Virus record (IMG/VR): IMGVR_UViG_3300028104_000058
Span: 1-31,951 of that record
DNA from: a virus
DNA: 31,951 nucleotides
Reading direction: 5' to 3' (one strand)
In this document: in pieces, positions 1 to 31,951 of the stretch
How positions within the stretch are numbered: the first letter of the stretch is position 1
How the letters are laid out: each line of letters opens with the position of its first letter
The notes under the pieces: model-generated
Told to the model about the DNA's origin: nothing
Databases searched by the model: none
Seen by the model: the letters and a program-made list of their open reading frames with translations, nothing else
Translations under genes and position numbers: made by a program

Positions 1-153
1 GCCAAGGCGGTGGCCGAGGCATTGACCAAGGCCCAGGGCGAGCGTGACGCCGCCGTTGGCCTTGGCCAGCTCGGCCTCCAGCTCGGCGGCCTTGGCCACG
101 GCGGCGTCACGCTCGCCCTGGGCCTTGGTCAATGCCTCGGCCACCGCCTTGGC
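1..153. repeat. Perfect 56-bp terminal inverted repeat (foldback)
   Basis: Bases 1-56 are the exact reverse complement of 98-153, separated by a 41-base spacer (57-97). The right arm reads sensibly in the leftward gene as an Ala/Lys/Glu-rich coiled coil; the left arm is the same DNA read backwards and gives an implausible Gly/Leu continuation. The spacer holds the direct repeat GGCCTTGGCC at 58-67 and 88-97, whose GGCC ends are self-complementary. I infer a foldback made during amplification or assembly at a contig end rather than a biological element. Confidence 0.85.
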
Positions 154-25542: not shown

Positions 25543-25721
25543 GCCCTAGCCCCCTTCCGTGCCGCCGACGTCGCCTTGGCCATGGCCTTGGGGTCGGGCG
25601 TGTGGACCTCGAAGCAGAGCCGGACCTTGTCGGTCGACTTCACGCTGGCGTCGAAGCGGATCGGGTCGCCGTTCCAGTCGAAAAGCTCGTCGCCCGCATC
25701 GTTGAGCAGGATCAGCTTCAC
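25539..25721 (-). CDS. Hypothetical small protein, 60 aa
   Basis: Beta-like start (VKLILLNDAGDELFDWNGD) and LCFEVHTPDPKAM, with a basic C-terminal helix (MAKATSAARKGARA). The GTG start overlaps the RDF-like gene stop as GTGA; long upstream frames are rejected. No family recognised, and likely an accessory to the preceding gene. Confidence 0.65.
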   Translation of the reverse strand: MKLILLNDAGDELFDWNGDPIRFDASVKSTDKVRLCFEVHTPDPKAMAKATSAARKGARA

Positions 25722-27253
25722 GACGCCGCCGCTTCCGCTGCTTCCTCGTCGGCGAGGTTCTGGCAGTAGGCGTCGATGGCGTTCACGTCGGCGTTGCTCA
25801 GGCGCTTGATGTCGCCCTTGCCGTCGGTGGCGCCCTCGACCACCAGCCTGCGGGCGGCGTCGGTCGACACTCCGACCTCGGCCATGCGGCTCCGGGCCAT
25901 GCGCAGCCGGTTCTTGTACGCCTCGTCGGCTTGCGTCTCGACGGCCAGCAGCAGGGACTGGGCCCGCTCGACGTCGGCCTTGGTCAGCCGGTCGGAGTTG
26001 GGCGGGGCGATGCCCTGCTCCACCCAGCGCAGCCCGGCGATCTCCTTGTGCTCGTCGTCGAGCTTGTCCATCCGGGCCATGAGCGCCTCCCGATCCCAGT
26101 CGTCGGCCGGGTCCTCGATGGGCGCAGCACTGGCCTCCCTGGACTGGACGGGAATGGGGCCGGAGGGGGCCCGTAACTGAGGATCGGCAGGAGTCGCCCC
26201 CTGCTGGCCCGCCCCCTCCGACGTCTGTGCTCCGCCCGGCTTCACCAGCACGGTGGCGTCGCCGGTGCCGGACAGCACCAGCTTGCCCTCGCTGAACCAG
26301 CGGGCCACGGAGTCGATCACGGGCCACTCGTCCACGGCGACCTCACGGCTCGAGCGCGTCCGGCCCTTGGTGGCGTAGCCGACGATGGCGTGGCGGATGT
26401 CGTCGTCCCAACCGGCGTCGGAGCACGAGATCACGAACGACCGCACCCGCTCGGCGTCGGTGATGACACCCGTGGCCTTGCCCGTACCGATGGCCTGGAC
26501 AGGCGCAGCCGCCAGCAGCTCGCCGGCGACGGCCTGGGGCAGCTCGATCACAGGCACGGCGAAGTTGCGGGTCTGGCCCTTGCGCTTCACCGTGCGGGCC
26601 TCCAGTCGGAGGCGGGCGTTGACGAACTGGCCGGGGGCACGGCGGGCGAGGAAGTCCATGAAGCCGCCCAGTTCGACAGCGGCGTAGAAGCCGTGGCTCT
26701 CCAGCATCCACACGCCCAGGTCGGGCACCTGGGGGAGGATCACCAGCAGCCGGGTCGTCATCTTGCACGCCCGGCCGTAGGCAGCCTCGGCCGACCGGGC
26801 CTCGGGATCGGTCGGGCAGACCGGGTTCATGGCCGAGCACGGCTGCCCGCTGATCGTCTCCCGCTCGCCGTCACAGCGCCGAGTGCATCCGCCCTTTGAC
26901 CAGCTTTCGAACCACTGGCTGAACGAGGCGCTTTCCACGTCGCCCTCCTCGTCGATGCTGACCGGCGGCAGAACGATGTCGAGCACCTTGGCCGACGTGT
27001 AGAGCTGCCACTCGTCCTCTTCGCCGGGGGCGCCGTCCCACTCGGTCACGTCGCCGCCGTAGACCTTGGCCGCTGCGTCGAGCAGTTCCCGATTGGGCGA
27101 CGTGAGCCGGAAGACCTCGATCTTGGCCGGACGGAACTTGAGCGTCCCGTCGTTGTTGCGGAGCTGCTTGCCGTCCTTCATGACGGGCTGCTGGTCGCCG
27201 ATGCGGATCTTGCCGAGCCGGCGGAAGGATCGCTGGAGGTTCTTGATGGGCAT
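25718..27253 (-). CDS. Recombination-directionality-factor family protein (phiC31 gp3-like), 511 aa
   Basis: Starts MPIKNLQRSFRRLGKIRIGD, the hallmark opening of the phiC31 gp3-like family, then LTSPNRELLDAAAKVYGGDV, a Cys-rich centre (GGCTRRCDGE, QPCSAMNPVCP), and LPQVPDLGVWMLESHGFYAA. PhiC31/phiBT1 gp3 binds the serine integrase to drive excision. The C-terminal 150 residues (from about 355) are low-complexity and helical and extend well past gp3 (about 244 aa). No integrase is in the window, and many members occur in phages without a known partner, so a general DNA-binding role is possible. GAGAGGA precedes the ATG by about 9 nt, after a 19-nt gap. Confidence 0.72.
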   Translation of the reverse strand: MPIKNLQRSFRRLGKIRIGDQQPVMKDGKQLRNNDGTLKFRPAKIEVFRLTSPNRELLDAAAKVYGGDVTEWDGAPGEEDEWQLYTSAKVLDIVLPPVSIDEEGDVESASFSQWFESWSKGGCTRRCDGERETISGQPCSAMNPVCPTDPEARSAEAAYGRACKMTTRLLVILPQVPDLGVWMLESHGFYAAVELGGFMDFLARRAPGQFVNARLRLEARTVKRKGQTRNFAVPVIELPQAVAGELLAAAPVQAIGTGKATGVITDAERVRSFVISCSDAGWDDDIRHAIVGYATKGRTRSSREVAVDEWPVIDSVARWFSEGKLVLSGTGDATVLVKPGGAQTSEGAGQQGATPADPQLRAPSGPIPVQSREASAAPIEDPADDWDREALMARMDKLDDEHKEIAGLRWVEQGIAPPNSDRLTKADVERAQSLLLAVETQADEAYKNRLRMARSRMAEVGVSTDAARRLVVEGATDGKGDIKRLSNADVNAIDAYCQNLADEEAAEAAAS

Positions 27254-27272
27254 GTGTCTGTTCCTCTCGGGA

Positions 27273-27563
27273 TCAGTCGCAGAACGCCGAGGCGTCGACC
27301 ACGGCACGGGGGCGGGAAGATGTCTGCTCGGCGGATCGGTGCTCGATCACGGCTCGGCGGTGCGAGCACTCCGGTTCGGTGTCCGGGTGCTCGGCGTGGG
27401 CCTGTCCATCGGGGCACCAGCACGTCAGGCGGCCCGGCTTGCCGGCGTACTCCACGAGATGCCACCAGCCGTACTCGTCGTCACGCACGAACCAGCGTCG
27501 ACCGTCGACCTTGTGGAAGGCGTCGATTACCTCGCGAGGCTGGTATGGCGTCAGGGCGGTCAT
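27273..27563 (-). CDS. Small SWIM-like zinc-finger protein, 96 aa
   Basis: Two Cys-x-Cys/His elements spaced as a SWIM finger (CxC...CxH): CWC at 48-50 and CSH at 66-68, with a His/Pro-rich loop between. The N-terminus has a beta pattern with RRWFVRDDEYGWWHLVEY. SWIM domains bind DNA or proteins in recombination complexes. ATG in an ATGA overlap. It lies between an unknown protein and the RDF-like gene. Confidence 0.68.
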   Translation of the reverse strand: MTALTPYQPREVIDAFHKVDGRRWFVRDDEYGWWHLVEYAGKPGRLTCWCPDGQAHAEHPDTEPECSHRRAVIEHRSAEQTSSRPRAVVDASAFCD

Positions 27564-28416: not shown

Positions 28417-29336
28417 CACGCCGCCTCTTCCTTCGCCGGGACCCGCTCGCCGTCGATGTCGCACTCCCACACCGGGCCGGCGCAGCCGGGGGATTTGATC
28501 TTGTCGGGGTACATGGCATCCCGGTGGACGACGATGTCGGACAGGCGCACGGGGCAGGCGATGAACTTCGTCTTGAAGCCGTCGTCGAAGAACCGCAGAG
28601 CTGCGGCGGGGCGGGGCGAGAAGTGCAGACCGCCACCGCACTCGTTCCGGCCACCGTCCCAATCAGGAGCGATGGGCGTCGTGCCGGGCGTGTAGTCGAA
28701 GCCGTGCGGACTGCGGAAGTTGGCGTCGACCGCCTTGTACAGCGTGGCGATCCCGTCGGTGACCTCGACGCCGTAGAAGTCGCACCACTCCGCTGCCGTG
28801 GTGATCGTGGGCAGGGTGATGACCACACCGCCGGTGACCTTGGTGCGGACACCATGGACGGTGACGGCCACGAAGTGGCCGGCCGTGACCTGCGCCGAGC
28901 CGGAGGCCCTGACCTGCGCCGAGTCGGAGGCCGTGACCTGCGCCGAGTCGTAGGCCGTGACCTGCGCCGAGCCGGAGGCCCTGACCTGCGCCGAGTCGGA
29001 GGCCGTGACCTGCGCCGAGCCGTAGGCCCTGACCTGCGCCGAGTCGGAGGCCGTGACCTGCGCCGAGTCGTAGGCCGTGACCTGCGCCGAGCCGGAGGCC
29101 CTGACCTGCGCCGAGTCGGAGGCCGTGACCTGCGCCGAGTCGTAGGCCGTGACCTGCGCCGAGCCGTAGGCCGTGACCTGCGCCGAGTCGGAGGCCCTGA
29201 CCTGCGCCGAGCCGTAGGCCGTGACCTGCGCCGAGCCGGAGGCCGTGAAGTAGCCATCGCCTCGGAGGTGGGCGCAGTCGCCCTTCTTGGTGGCCGCTTC
29301 GAGCTCGGCCTGGGTGCGAACGTCGACGCAATTCAT
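28416..29336 (-). CDS. Repeat protein with beta-helix-like octapeptides and conserved C-terminal domain, 306 aa
   Basis: After a short N-terminal part (MNCVDVRTQAELEAATKKGD), 15 octapeptides of the form A-[S/Y]-[G/D]-S-A-Q-V-[T/R] run without interruption (about residues 31-150), a spacing and pattern suited to a right-handed beta-helix. A domain of about 155 residues follows, with GVVITLPTITTAAEW, DWDGGRNECGGGLHFSPRP, FFDDGFKTKFIACPVRLSD and PDKIKSPGC, recurring in actinophage proteins of unknown function. The repeats could present a surface or bind a ligand. ATG at 29336 is an ATGA overlap. A frame reaching 29600 is a spurious extension. Comparable phage proteins differ in repeat number. 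Confidence 0.8.
   Translation of the reverse strand: MNCVDVRTQAELEAATKKGDCAHLRGDGYFTASGSAQVTAYGSAQVRASDSAQVTAYGSAQVTAYDSAQVTASDSAQVRASGSAQVTAYDSAQVTASDSAQVRAYGSAQVTASDSAQVRASGSAQVTAYDSAQVTASDSAQVRASGSAQVTAGHFVAVTVHGVRTKVTGGVVITLPTITTAAEWCDFYGVEVTDGIATLYKAVDANFRSPHGFDYTPGTTPIAPDWDGGRNECGGGLHFSPRPAAALRFFDDGFKTKFIACPVRLSDIVVHRDAMYPDKIKSPGCAGPVWECDIDGERVPAKEEAA
28885..29244 (-). repeat. Tandem array of 15 x 24-bp repeats
   Basis: Fifteen contiguous 24-bp units (plus strand form [G/C]TGACCTGCGCCGAG then [C/T]CG[G/T]AGGCC). Twenty-one positions are invariant in all units. Three positions vary, each with two states, and each change alters one residue: Thr/Arg, Gly/Asp, Ser/Tyr. No synonymous difference is seen. 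Confidence 0.95.
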
Positions 29337-29754: not shown

Positions 29755-30006
29755 CTACCGTCCGTTCTGCGGCAGTAACGTGCCGCCTTCGGCCCGGTCG
29801 GAATTGCCCTCCGACCGGGTTGTCTTTTGGGTGGAACCGCCGGACGCAGCCACGGCGGACGACTGGCCGGCGGTTCCGTCGACCCCGTCAGCAGGCTCGG
29901 GCGCCCTGCTGAACGGAGTCGGCGCAGCGGCCAACCGGAACACGCCCCCGGCGAAGAGGGACACGGGCACAGACACGAGGCACCAGGCGATGAGCACCCG
30001 GATCAC
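29755..30006 (-). CDS. Membrane-anchored low-complexity protein, 83 aa
   Basis: One N-terminal hydrophobic segment (VLIAWCLVSVPVSLFAGGVF) followed by a Pro/Ser/Gly-rich extracytoplasmic tail (SRAPEPADGVDGTAGQSSAV). A type of small surface or membrane protein often found in actinophage early regions. The start is a GTG in a GTGA overlap. A rightward terminator-like hairpin (29793-29828) lies inside its 3' half, so its mRNA also folds strongly. Confidence 0.6.
   Translation of the reverse strand: MIRVLIAWCLVSVPVSLFAGGVFRLAAAPTPFSRAPEPADGVDGTAGQSSAVAASGGSTQKTTRSEGNSDRAEGGTLLPQNGR
29793..29828 (+). terminator. Rightward-oriented intrinsic terminator inside the leftward operon
   Basis: A perfect 10-bp GC-rich stem, CCCGGTCGGA (29793-29802) with TCCGACCGGG (29810-29819), a 7-base loop, then TTGTCTTTT (29820-29828) on the plus strand. 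The leftward strand shows no U-tract after the stem, so this should stop rightward rather than leftward transcripts. It lies within the coding sequence of the small membrane protein. Antisense transcription from the right is the likely target. Confidence 0.55.
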
Positions 30007-30161
30007 GACCGGGCCTCGTCGTCATCGGTGCCGAAGTCGCCCAGCTCGGCGAGCGTGGCGTGGGTGCGAGCGCAACGGTCGTCGGCGCACTCGGTGATGT
30101 AGGGCGGGCCCGGGTGGTAGCGGTAGACCCTGCCGTCGGCGGCGGTCGTGCGGGCGGTCAC
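30003..30161 (-). CDS. Hypothetical small protein with CADDRC pair, 52 aa
   Basis: Beta-like DGRVYRYHPGPPYITE, then CADDRCARTH and an acidic tail. GTG start in a GTGA overlap. One Cys pair only; no family recognised. Confidence 0.6.
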   Translation of the reverse strand: MTARTTAADGRVYRYHPGPPYITECADDRCARTHATLAELGDFGTDDDEARS

Positions 30162-30334
30162 GTCAACCACCAGGCGAAGATGAAGACGGCGACGGCCTGG
30201 AAGTACGACCGCTCAAGCGCCTTGCCCCACTCCTGGCCGAACAGGGCCTGGTAGAGGAGGTTCGAGCACGTCAGGACGATGACGAGCAACAGGGCCAGCA
30301 GCCAGACGTTGCCCAGGTCTTTCACGACCTTCAC
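30158..30334 (-). CDS. Two-helix membrane protein, 58 aa
   Basis: Two hydrophobic segments (VWLLALLLVIVLTCSNLLY and FQAVAVFIFAWWL) separated by a charged loop (GQEWGKALERS), a hairpin topology suited to a holin or membrane-pore regulator. GTG start in a GTGA overlap. Assignment by topology only. Confidence 0.68.
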   Translation of the reverse strand: MKVVKDLGNVWLLALLLVIVLTCSNLLYQALFGQEWGKALERSYFQAVAVFIFAWWLT

Positions 30335-30585
30335 GACGCCACCTGCCCGGTGCGCCGCTCATGGCGACGCAGCTCCTCAACGACAAGCGCCCAGGTCTCC
30401 TCCGACGCCGGCTTGACCCGGGCCAGGTAGGAGGCGGCACGACGGCCGGCGTTGTCAAGCTGGGCGGCCTGCTCGGCGGTGATAGCCGGCATCACCCGTA
30501 GGAGCGTGTCCACGATCTGCTCGGCCTTGTGCTTCCGTGCCAACCGCTCATGTGGGTTGTCGGCGGCCATCTGGTCGGCGGCCAT
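30331..30585 (-). CDS. Hypothetical helical protein, 84 aa
   Basis: Charged N-terminus (NPHERLARKHKAEQIVDTLL), RVMPAITAEQAAQLDNAGRR, and C-terminal RRHERRTGQ. ATG in a TGATG overlap at 30585. No family recognised. Confidence 0.65.
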   Translation of the reverse strand: MAADQMAADNPHERLARKHKAEQIVDTLLRVMPAITAEQAAQLDNAGRRAASYLARVKPASEETWALVVEELRRHERRTGQVAS

Positions 30586-30824
30586 CACCGCAGCCCCTCG
30601 GGCAGCAGGTGGACAGGCGTGGGCTTGCGGGGGACGATGAGCGTGCCCCGCCGGATGGCCCGGGCGGTGGCCTGGATGCCGGCGACGTGCTGGCGGTGCT
30701 GCTTGACGGCATCGCACTTGCGCCGGCGGAACACCCCGGCCCACCGGCCGCACGAGCACGACGGCGCCCAGCGGTGGATGTGCTCGGCGCCACGGTCGGT
30801 CAGGACGAGGGCGTGGGTGGCCAT
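30585..30824 (-). CDS. Hypothetical Cys-containing protein, 79 aa
   Basis: A Cys-x-Cys cluster (APSCSCGRW) is followed by RRRKCDAVKQHRQHV, which could complete a metal site. ATG at 30824 is in a TGATG overlap. No family recognised. Confidence 0.62.
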   Translation of the reverse strand: MATHALVLTDRGAEHIHRWAPSCSCGRWAGVFRRRKCDAVKQHRQHVAGIQATARAIRRGTLIVPRKPTPVHLLPEGLR

Positions 30825-31015
30825 CACGACCGCCCCCGGTCAGCCCGTCGCTTGGCGATGCGGGCACACGCACGGGTGCGGCGGTAGAAGTCCTTGTCGA
30901 CCAGTCCGACCGGCTCGGCCAGGGCGCAGACCCGGCCGTCCTTCGAGAGCTGGCCGTAGCGGCCACATGACCGGCAGACGCCGATGTGGAAGTCCTGGGC
31001 GGTGAGGGCGGTCAT
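30824..31015 (-). CDS. Small zinc-ribbon-like protein, 63 aa
   Basis: CRSCG (Cys15, Cys18) and a later Cys (VCALAEP), then a basic helix (DFYRRTRACARIAKRRADR). A single metal site plus a basic tail suggests nucleic-acid binding. ATG in an ATGA overlap. Confidence 0.65.
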   Translation of the reverse strand: MTALTAQDFHIGVCRSCGRYGQLSKDGRVCALAEPVGLVDKDFYRRTRACARIAKRRADRGRS

Positions 31016-31188
31016 GACGCGCTCTGCCAGAGGTAGACGACGCCCCACACGACGAGGGCGTTCAGGATCACCGTGCCGACAGCCGTTGCTCCGTCAATCG
31101 GCTTGCGGGGCTTACCGACGAGTGCGACCGTGCACAGCGTCCCCACGACCATCAAGCCGACGATCAGCCCTACAACGAGACCTCTCAT
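31012..31188 (-). CDS. Two-helix membrane protein, 58 aa
   Basis: Two transmembrane segments, LVVGLIVGLMVVGTLCTVAL and AVGTVILNALVVWGVVYL, with a basic turn (GKPRKP) between them. AAGGAG lies about 8 nt before the ATG, and the start overlaps as ATGA. Holin-like by topology, but an early-gene location argues for another role. Confidence 0.72.
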   Translation of the reverse strand: MRGLVVGLIVGLMVVGTLCTVALVGKPRKPIDGATAVGTVILNALVVWGVVYLWQSAS

Positions 31189-31412
31189 GAAGCGCGCTCC
31201 TTCCGGGAGCCGGCGACGACGATGGCGCCGGCGAGCATCTGGTAGACAGCGGCGTCGGCGACGTCGGCCACGCCGGCGGCGACGTTCTGCTCGCGGAGCT
31301 GGCTGGCGGCCTCGTAGAAGCAGACGCCGTGCGCCCGCACGGGCGAGCCGTCGTTGCGCACGCAGACGTGGGCGGCGTCGGCCAGGGCGTAGCGGCAGGG
31401 CTCGGCGGCCAT
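31185..31412 (-). CDS. Hypothetical Cys-containing protein, 75 aa
   Basis: Cys-rich N-terminus (EPCRYALADAAHVCVRNDG), HGVCFYEAASQLREQN, and a helical C-terminus (VADAAVYQMLAGAIVVAGS). Three cysteines and two histidines could bind a metal. ATG in a TGATG overlap. No family recognised. Confidence 0.65.
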   Translation of the reverse strand: MAAEPCRYALADAAHVCVRNDGSPVRAHGVCFYEAASQLREQNVAAGVADVADAAVYQMLAGAIVVAGSRKERAS

Positions 31413-31612
31413 CACGCCGCCGCCTCGATCCCAAGCTGATCCGCCCAGCGCCGAAGTGTCTGGCCCGAGAGGGTGATCCCATGGGCGGCGTACAGACGAC
31501 GTGAAACCTCTTCCCACGAACCGGTCTCGCCGTAGAGGGTGGTCATCATCTCGACCAGGCGCCCATCGGCTAGCTTGTCCGCCATCCGGAACTGAGCGGT
31601 TCGTGGAGCCAT
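31412..31612 (-). CDS. Small helix-turn-helix protein (first gene of leftward operon), 66 aa
   Basis: An HTH pattern is visible: VEMMTTLYGETGSWEEVSRR, then LYAAHGITLSGQTLRRWADQ. As the first leftward gene, divergent from an Xre-type repressor, it is placed like a Cro or excisionase-type regulator. Its ATG lies 6 nt after a -10-like TAAAGT, predicting a leaderless transcript with no ribosome binding site, and none is evident. Confidence 0.75.
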   Translation of the reverse strand: MAPRTAQFRMADKLADGRLVEMMTTLYGETGSWEEVSRRLYAAHGITLSGQTLRRWADQLGIEAAA

Positions 31613-31618
31613 GCGGAA

Positions 31619-31647
31619 ACTTTATCCGCTCACCGGGTAATAATCAA
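31619..31647 (-). promoter_or_regulatory. Leftward promoter (leaderless type)
   Basis: On the minus strand, -35 TTGATT (31642-31647), a 17-bp spacer, -10 TAAAGT (31619-31624), then 6 nt to the ATG at 31612. The spacing would start the RNA at or beside the start codon. The -35 overlaps the CAACA half of a palindrome. Confidence 0.6.
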
Positions 31648-31670
31648 CACCTTGTTGCCATTTGTTGTCC
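31645..31670. promoter_or_regulatory. Candidate operator between divergent promoters
   Basis: The palindrome CAACA-CCT-TGTTG (31645-31657) overlaps both -35 elements. A second TGTTG at 31663-31667 repeats the right half-site 10 bp away, one helical turn. An Xre-family repressor bound here could block either promoter. Confidence 0.5.
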
Positions 31671-31683
31671 ACATGGGCAGAAT
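31655..31683 (+). promoter_or_regulatory. Rightward promoter (leaderless type)
   Basis: On the plus strand, -35 TTGCCA (31655-31660), a 17-bp spacer, -10 CAGAAT (31678-31683), then 7 nt to GTG at 31691, the likely start of the repressor. Also leaderless. The -35 overlaps the TGTTG half of the palindrome. Confidence 0.55.
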
Positions 31684-31690
31684 GGCCCTT

Positions 31691-31951
31691 GTGAACGGAA
31701 CACCTACCCCCGAACGTGAACAGGTTGCCGCAGAAGTGCGTGCCCTGATGGGAAGAGGGAGAGGGCACCGAAGGGTGTCGCAGGCGAAGCTCGCGGCCGA
31801 CCTCAAGATGGCGCAGGCGTCACTGTCCCGCCGGCTTACTGGCGAGGTGCCCTTCGACATCGACGAGCTGGCGGCGATTGCCCGCTACTTCGGCGTGCCC
31901 CTTCAGAGCCTCCTGGGAAACGGCACTACGATGGGAGCAGAGGGCCGTTAG
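31691..31951 (+). CDS. Xre-family HTH repressor, 86 aa
   Basis: The only rightward gene. The HTH core reads VSQAKLAADLKMAQASLSRR followed by LTGEVPFDIDELAAIARYFG, matching lambda-repressor-like (HTH_3) DNA-binding proteins. It is small, lacks a dimerisation/cleavage domain and ends exactly at the window edge with TAG. GTG at 31691 is preferred because it sits 7 nt after a -10-like sequence; ATG at 31682 or 31673 would fall in that promoter. Position opposite the leftward operon suggests an immunity repressor controlling both promoters. Confidence 0.8.
   Translation: MNGTPTPEREQVAAEVRALMGRGRGHRRVSQAKLAADLKMAQASLSRRLTGEVPFDIDELAAIARYFGVPLQSLLGNGTTMGAEGR

Follow-up and report, generated by a model that had tools for sequence, protein, structure and literature searches.

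A divergent promoter region in an uncultured virus record as a candidate phage immunity switch, with a repressor stop codon that a host tRNA gene may supply

The divergent promoter region at positions 31610 to 31693 of IMG/VR record IMGVR_UViG_3300028104_000058 is, in our judgment, likely to be the immunity switch of a temperate, uncultured, and probably actinobacterial phage, one in which leaderless promoters and a 15-mer operator would serve a repressor whose activity is coupled to integration. This reading draws on comparison of the window (the whole stretch of DNA analyzed, 31,951 nucleotides) with related sequences, and the same comparison suggests that a host tRNA may supply the stop codon of the repressor upon integration. 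The closest relative of the window is the viral contig IMGVR_UViG_3300005445_000005 (handled both as L002 and as L008), which carries both divergent genes, with the repressor 84% identical and the 66-amino-acid (66-aa) protein about 76 to 77% identical. The features of the region, in window coordinates, are the following.

31412..31612, minus strand: open reading frame (ORF) of the 66-aa protein, in Cro position, taken as the first leftward (early lytic) gene; ends -AAA; homologue in L008
31619..31624 (read 31624-31619), minus strand: -10 box of the lytic promoter, TAAAGT; TAGTCT at the equivalent position in L002
31624..31638: candidate repressor operator ATCCGCTCACCGGGT in the lytic promoter spacer; 5 of 7 arm pairs, 7 of 7 in L002
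31642..31647 (read 31647-31642), minus strand: -35 box of the lytic promoter, TTGATT; TTGCGA in L002
31645..31657: CAACA-N3-TGTTG palindrome CAACACCTTGTTG; imperfect in L002
31655..31660, plus strand: -35 box of the repressor promoter, TTGCCA; identical in L002
31663..31667, plus strand: third TGTTG, 10 bp past the second; in a 19-nt block identical in L002
31665..31673, plus strand: DnaA-box-like TTGTCCACA in the repressor promoter spacer; identical in L002
31678..31683, plus strand: -10 box of the repressor promoter, CAGAAT; CATGAT in L002
31691..31951, plus strand: Xre/CI-type repressor, 86 aa, GTG start; Pfam, PHROG, and fold matches
31942..31951, plus strand: GGGCCGTTAG, equal to nucleotides 1-10 of a tRNA-Lys or tRNA-Val gene, from tRNA matches in genomes

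An initial annotation of this region placed an Xre repressor on one side of the promoters and a small helix-turn-helix (HTH) gene on the other. The repressor is borne out by matches to BetR (2.7e-9) and HTH_3 (2e-7) in Pfam and to phrog_4583, a transcriptional repressor (4.9e-16), and by a lambda-CI-type fold with 13 PDB fold matches at E <= 0.001. Its relatives in phage records number 55, all below 60% identity (27 from Gordonia, 18 from Mycobacterium, 7 from Arthrobacter, and 3 others), and their annotations include repressor, cro, excise, and HTH protein. The 66-aa gene is present as well, but its assignment to the HTH class is weak. The protein is modeled with four helices at a mean pLDDT of 78, and a Foldseek search returned 27 rows, the best at E 1.3 and none below E 1. 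No Xre/HTH or other family scored above its curated cut-off (the best, DUF2239, at E 0.0016, lay under it), no PHROG matched below E 0.4, and tblastn found no homologue in 50,697 phage records at E 0.01. Among nine viral-contig loci that matched the protein, L008 is the L002 contig, and L009, L010, L011, and L016 were discarded as homologues; on reading, they resemble DNA polymerase genes in which a short stretch is similar by chance. Most divergent partners in the relatives look by eye like Xre paralogues, and the 66-aa partner is an orphan.

Past the 66-aa gene, the leftward series encodes a Gp3-like factor, a DnaB helicase, and an SNF2-type helicase, and for this reason we assign the early lytic role to the leftward promoter. 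Gp3-like directionality factors first became known from serine integrase systems. The window encodes such a recombination directionality factor at 25721-27307 (PF18897, E 3.1e-37), so the integrase type of its phage is uncertain; the integrase of L002 is of the tyrosine type. Many cro-side proteins of the family (L004, L037, L051, L053, L071, L085, L094, and others) end in -AA, -AAS, or -ASA, which could mark them for degradation or could arise where the gene overlaps the start codon that follows. Elsewhere in the window, a perfect 56-nt inverted repeat at the record start (arms 1-56 and 98-153, with 41 nt between) probably arose as a fold-back in assembly or amplification within a gene of the virion side, and a 24-bp tandem repeat at 28881-29248 (15.3 copies, 91% matches) lies in a 394-aa minus-strand ORF with Ser-Ala-Gln-Val repeats.

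The letters at 31610-31693 show the back-to-back -35/-10 pairs just as they had been described, both with 17-bp spacers, and the -10 boxes end 6 nt (minus strand, ATG) and 7 nt (plus strand, GTG) before the start codons. The minus-strand promoter is TTGATT-17 bp-TAAAGT-6 nt-ATG (31612-31610), and the plus-strand promoter is TTGCCA-17 bp-CAGAAT-7 nt-GTG (31691-31693). Across both strands of the window, the rule TTGnnn-17-nAnnnT-6/7-[AG]TG picks out 2 of 2,018 ATG/GTG codons, those at 31691 on the plus strand and 31612 on the minus strand, in a test that is partly post hoc because the values 17 and 6-7 were taken from the initial annotation; independent support weighs more for that reason. A looser rule (spacer of 16-19, 5-9 nt before the start) picks out 5 of the 2,018. 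A promoter scan of 30000-31951 listed the plus-strand promoter alone (1 found, 0.1 expected), the minus-strand promoter scoring 8 of 12 with a cut-off of 9. Inspection by eye of the 20 bases that precede each start showed no Shine-Dalgarno-like run. For both messages, transcription probably starts on the first base of the start codon or beside it.

The same layout is kept in L002, even though both starts have shifted by one base: its lytic promoter reads TTGCGA-17-TAGTCT-7-GTG and its repressor promoter TTGCCA-17-CATGAT-6-GTG. For the wider family, the best 80 of 103 loci were combined with seven of eight phage regions (L019 was left out as apparently the same genome as L027) and with the window, giving 88 sequences, 80 of them non-identical, in 74 clusters. 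Upstream DNA was long enough in 72 clusters, and in 50 of these TTGnnn-16..19-nAnnnT ends 5-9 nt ahead of a start, versus a mean of 2.3 and a maximum of 6 in dinucleotide shuffles. For the divergent partners (72 loci, 2 without an ORF), 45 of 70 fit the rule versus a mean of 3.8 and a maximum of 10 in shuffles, a count that scores the window and L002 as failures through choice of the wrong minus-strand ORF; the right ORFs fit. The genes matched come from both the repressor side and the cro side, and loci that are related do not count as independent draws. In this repressor family, back-to-back leaderless promoters seem to be the norm. Our literature search, which covered its sources in part, returned no account of leaderless promoters as a trait of the family; the word "leaderless" is absent from the main text of PMC4557955, PMC8092301, and PMC9934374 and occurs once in PMC11373665 (Adephagia). 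As a family rule, the design would allow start sites and operators to be predicted in many phages that have yet to be studied.

Relatives also share a recurring palindrome centered on CGCTNAGCG. A scan for this motif, which was chosen after reading the loci, tolerated one core mismatch and required 6 or more of the 7 arm pairs; it found 32 sites in 19,514 upstream bases versus 9 in 402,107 other bases (about 70-fold denser), with sites in 20 of 74 loci. In L002, a perfect copy, ATCCGCTCAGCGGAT, sits inside the lytic promoter spacer. The copy in the window, ATCCGCTCACCGGGT, is degenerate and below the scan cut-off, and the window counts among the 54 loci without a site. Judging from these comparisons, the repressor probably binds the predicted 15-mer at 31624-31638 and would thereby block the lytic promoter. 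In L038, L050, and L007, three CCCGCTNAGCGGG-type palindromes with a spacing of about 60-63 bp lie upstream of the repressor-family gene, an arrangement reminiscent of a tripartite operator.

The record ends with the repressor stop codon, TAG (31949-31951), which forms nucleotides 8-10 of the tRNA-like GGGCCGTTAG. In four other family records (L003, L030, L046, and L070), the final base likewise belongs to the matched gene's stop codon, as we infer would be expected for provirus records trimmed at gene ends. In genomes, the pattern GGGCCGTTAGCTCAGTTNGGTAGAGC occurred in 72 stretches, in which ARAGORN called 67 tRNA-Lys, 2 tRNA-Ala, and 3 nothing. The 17-mer GGGCCGTTAGCTCAGTT was found in 61 of 396 genomes from the phylum of an Actinomycetota MAG, with no match to the pattern read backwards, and 12 loci sampled comprised nine tRNA-Lys(TTT) and three tRNA-Val(GAC). 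The tRNA sets used below for the 18-base comparisons, the 14-mer search, and the count of TAG at positions 8-10 were gathered from loci fetched with tRNA patterns and are biased.

L002 has GGGCCGTTTGCTCAGTT, with one mismatch in the 17-mer, at tRNA position 9, and a match at 17 of 18 bases when extended. Apart from L008, the same contig, no other site in 1.08 million positions comes within one mismatch of the 17-mer. At the equivalent place L002 reads GGGCCGTTTG, with TTG where the window repressor has its stop TAG, so that its repressor reads on, TGR-LLSSRAA-stop. The protein ends -SSRAA, and the ORF of the adjoining tyrosine integrase starts 28 nt later; the window record ends at the repressor. 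Judged by sequence, L002 has a putative attP in the repressor frame; of this region the window holds only the record's last ten bases, GGGCCGTTAG.

A blind 14-mer search of the 650 bases after the core of each matched gene, made with 118 tRNAs in a set biased to Lys (68) and Glu (31), gave matches in four loci (L003, L005, L047, and L070), all antisense; a control of the same type matched in 8 of 349 regions. The excess is only modest because many matched genes are cro-side; the antisense layout is the more usual one. The tRNA of L003 is also an Rfam match. In the isolate phage Rahul, the repressor ends -HAA over an antisense tRNA (read by eye), which is the more usual layout, and no tRNA-like attP was noticed in the isolate phage Schnabeltier.

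The L002 integrase has five relatives in viral contigs (L172, L173, L195, L196, and L197; 31-46% identity over the best segment), and in each of these loci an HTH-like ORF, as read, ends just before the integrase. The repressor 3' end of L172 holds GGGCGTTTGGCTCAGTT, and GGGCGTTTAGCTCAGTT is a tRNA-Val(TAC) in 8 of 8 loci sampled (22 of 396 genomes). L173, L196, and L197 hold TCCGGGGT followed by ATCTCA, ATATCA, or TGCTCA, cores found by reading rather than by blind search, and TCCGGGGTAGCTCA is a tRNA-Asn(GTT) in 12 of 12 loci sampled (33 of 149 genomes; the pattern read backwards matched in 3). In the repressor frame, the triplet at tRNA positions 8-10 is TTG in L002 and L197, TGG in L172, and TAT in L173 and L196; in the host tRNAs that best match these five, it is TAG. 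Thus, of the six viral loci that carry this integrase type, five have a repressor whose 3' end is an in-frame copy of a tRNA 5' end, with a sense codon in place of TAG; four of the loci are linked to L002 by integrases alone, not by repressors. When 18 bases are compared with 171 tRNAs, the closest tRNA has a difference at position 9 or 10 and at most one more elsewhere. The chance of five in-frame placements is (1/3)^5 if the five are independent. The proteins end RAA (L002), SAA (L172), VAA (L173), QAA (L196), and VYA (L197); that of L195 ends LAA, with no in-frame tRNA triplet readable there, and lies outside the tRNA pattern. TAG occupies positions 8-10 in 116 of 171 tRNAs overall and in 43 of 94 non-Lys tRNAs (a biased set), so only some tRNAs lend themselves to the stop-codon design. 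Searches for lysogens turned up none with the predicted junction. Of 196 stretches in genome contigs that matched a pattern for prophages with this repressor, none was confirmed. Integrases of the L002 type matched in 1 of 396 genomes (E <= 1e-30) and 2 of 66 (E <= 1e-50). L198, L199, L216, and L217 were rejected as lysogens; they appear to be elements of other kinds, and no repressor was seen next to their integrases.

We propose that the leftward promoter would drive the early lytic genes, the 66-aa Cro-position protein first, and the rightward promoter the repressor. In the free phage, the repressor frame would cross attP and close with a degradation tail ending in alanine, and the integrase gene would follow. 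When the phage integrates into the 5' end of a tRNA gene, the repressor would be joined to the host copy, whose TAG at nucleotides 8-10 would become an in-frame stop. The integrated form would therefore encode a shorter, untagged repressor, and the window is read as this form. The crossover position, the proteolysis, and the equation of the record end with a prophage junction are presumptive; since the window flank and the integrase lie outside the record, the prophage reading rests on relatives.

A broader version of this model is possible, though we hold it with less assurance. Phages might recurrently use U8-A9-G10 of a tRNA as the repressor stop and carry an attP copy altered to TTG, TGG, or TAT; integration would restore UAG and a stable repressor, and the repressor transcript would double as a tRNA precursor from which RNase P removes the stop codon. 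In such a lysogen, the tRNA would be cut off from its own promoter, and its precursor would be the leaderless message of the repressor, which would begin about 250 nt upstream. Since the tRNA would lose its upstream promoter and no other sigma-70-like site was found on the plus strand of 30000-31951 at the promoter scan threshold, the repressor promoter would have to make the tRNA too. RNase P, cutting at the first base of the tRNA, would take the stop codon off the repressor message, and a single promoter would then link immunity with tRNA supply and message decay. If this is true, the host genome punctuates the phage repressor, and a tRNA gene, which must stay intact, doubles as a stabilizing stop codon. 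The phage would "know" of its integration through the tRNA stop, and a shared repressor-tRNA transcript is predicted. Within the portions of the literature that our search reached, including PMC8092301, PMC9934374, PMC10865867, PMC5559632, and PMC6109161 and with many subscription papers outside its scope, no account of tRNA-supplied stop codons came up.

Might the region instead be an ordinary lambda-like switch, uncoupled from integration, with the record end an accident of trimming or assembly and the tRNA likeness due to chance? Within the window the tRNA match extends over no more than ten bases, the window flank is missing, and the record holds no integrase, all of which suit such a view. 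We nevertheless think it unlikely, given that L002 extends the match to 17 of 18 bases at a unique place and has an -RAA tail and an integrase, and that four other phages show the same in-frame design. A separate question is where the repressor binds. The initial annotation had it bind CAACA-N3-TGTTG and a third TGTTG, touching both -35 boxes, as one operator for both promoters. The palindrome is well placed and is the window's only perfect copy (with up to two mismatches, 11 matches versus 5.2 expected), the third half-site does lie one turn away, exactly 10 bp on at 31663-31667, and the block holding it is identical over 19 nt in L002. The palindrome was said to cover both -35 boxes; it is there, but it overlaps three of six bases of each and not the whole boxes. 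Furthermore, it reads CAACAACTTATTG in L002, despite the 84% identity of the two repressors, and a different 15-mer palindrome, perfect in L002, recurs in relatives. On these grounds we rejected CAACA-N3-TGTTG as the family operator, and we think it improbable that it serves the repressor here; the operator was probably misplaced in that annotation. Of the compact switch it described, the divergent layout, the leaderless promoters, and the Xre side stand, the shared operator does not, and the HTH identity of the 66-aa gene is doubtful. At a guess, the CAACA/TGTTG sites over the repressor promoter could be sites for the 66-aa Cro-position protein.

The identity of the block TTGCCATTTGTTGTCCACA over 19 nt in the window and L002 exceeds the need of a promoter spacer, which may mean that a second protein acts at this block; our guesses would be the 66-aa protein and host DnaA. 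TTGTCCACA, which we take to match the actinobacterial DnaA box, is the only TTRTCCACA in the window, and L004 has TTATCCACA. Host DnaA acting on the switch through 31665-31673 would tie repressor synthesis to the replication state. TTRTCCACA has three matches in 74 upstream regions (window, L002, and L004) versus 0.175 in shuffles, with 0 of 200 shuffles reaching three, and is absent from 448,608 other bases of the loci. However, the window and L002 are homologous, which leaves two independent cases, and the wider consensus YYVTCCACA gives a weaker excess (4 versus 1.06, reached by 3 of 200 shuffles). The literature search, within the source portions it covered, found nothing on DnaA in such a switch. 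We regard a role for DnaA as very unlikely, and we prefer a repressor that would act at the 15-mer in the lytic promoter spacer, with its activity coupled to integration.

In the lambda CI/Cro switch, promoters are divergent, the cI message from PRM is leaderless, and immunity is uncoupled from integration. The window resembles lambda in its divergent promoters, CI-type repressor fold, and apparently leaderless repressor message, and it differs in that both messages appear leaderless and in the proposed coupling of immunity to integration. The relatives point to a kind of system already known, integration-dependent immunity, in which the tagged viral repressor of mycobacteriophages and Gordonia phages is proteolysed and integration removes the tag (PMC4557955, PMC4929511, and PMC8092301); a stop made of the tRNA's own nucleotides would be a variant that we have not found described, including in PMC4929511 and the parts of PMC8092301 available. 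Like mycobacteriophage BPs, as far as the accessible text of PMC4557955 goes, the window has divergent repressor and cro-like genes with two promoters between them, and its candidate operator lies between the -10 and -35 boxes of the lytic promoter, where the BPs operator also lies. L002 further resembles BPs in having an integrase beside the repressor, a putative attP in the repressor 3' end, and, on the viral form, what would be a degradation tail. Unlike in BPs (same portion of PMC4557955), the repressor and operator sequences are other ones, the 66-aa partner is an orphan, and the overlap is with the 5' end of the tRNA, in sense orientation, where the tRNA's own nucleotides 8-10 would be the stop codon. 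The Gordonia phages Obliviate, Guacamole, and UmaThurman (PMC4929511) have repressors of the same family (Guacamole gene 41 matches), with attP in the repressor and -AA tails. Prophages of M. abscessus are alike in both of the latter respects, according to the parts of PMC8092301 available, in which a stop codon is created at attL in MabC, MabK, MabN, and MabO, and integration at a tRNA 5' end, with the tRNA losing its upstream promoter, is described for MabA1, which is outside the clusters listed as integration dependent. The attL stop codon and the tRNA 5'-end integration, found there in different phages, would be combined in the switch proposed here.
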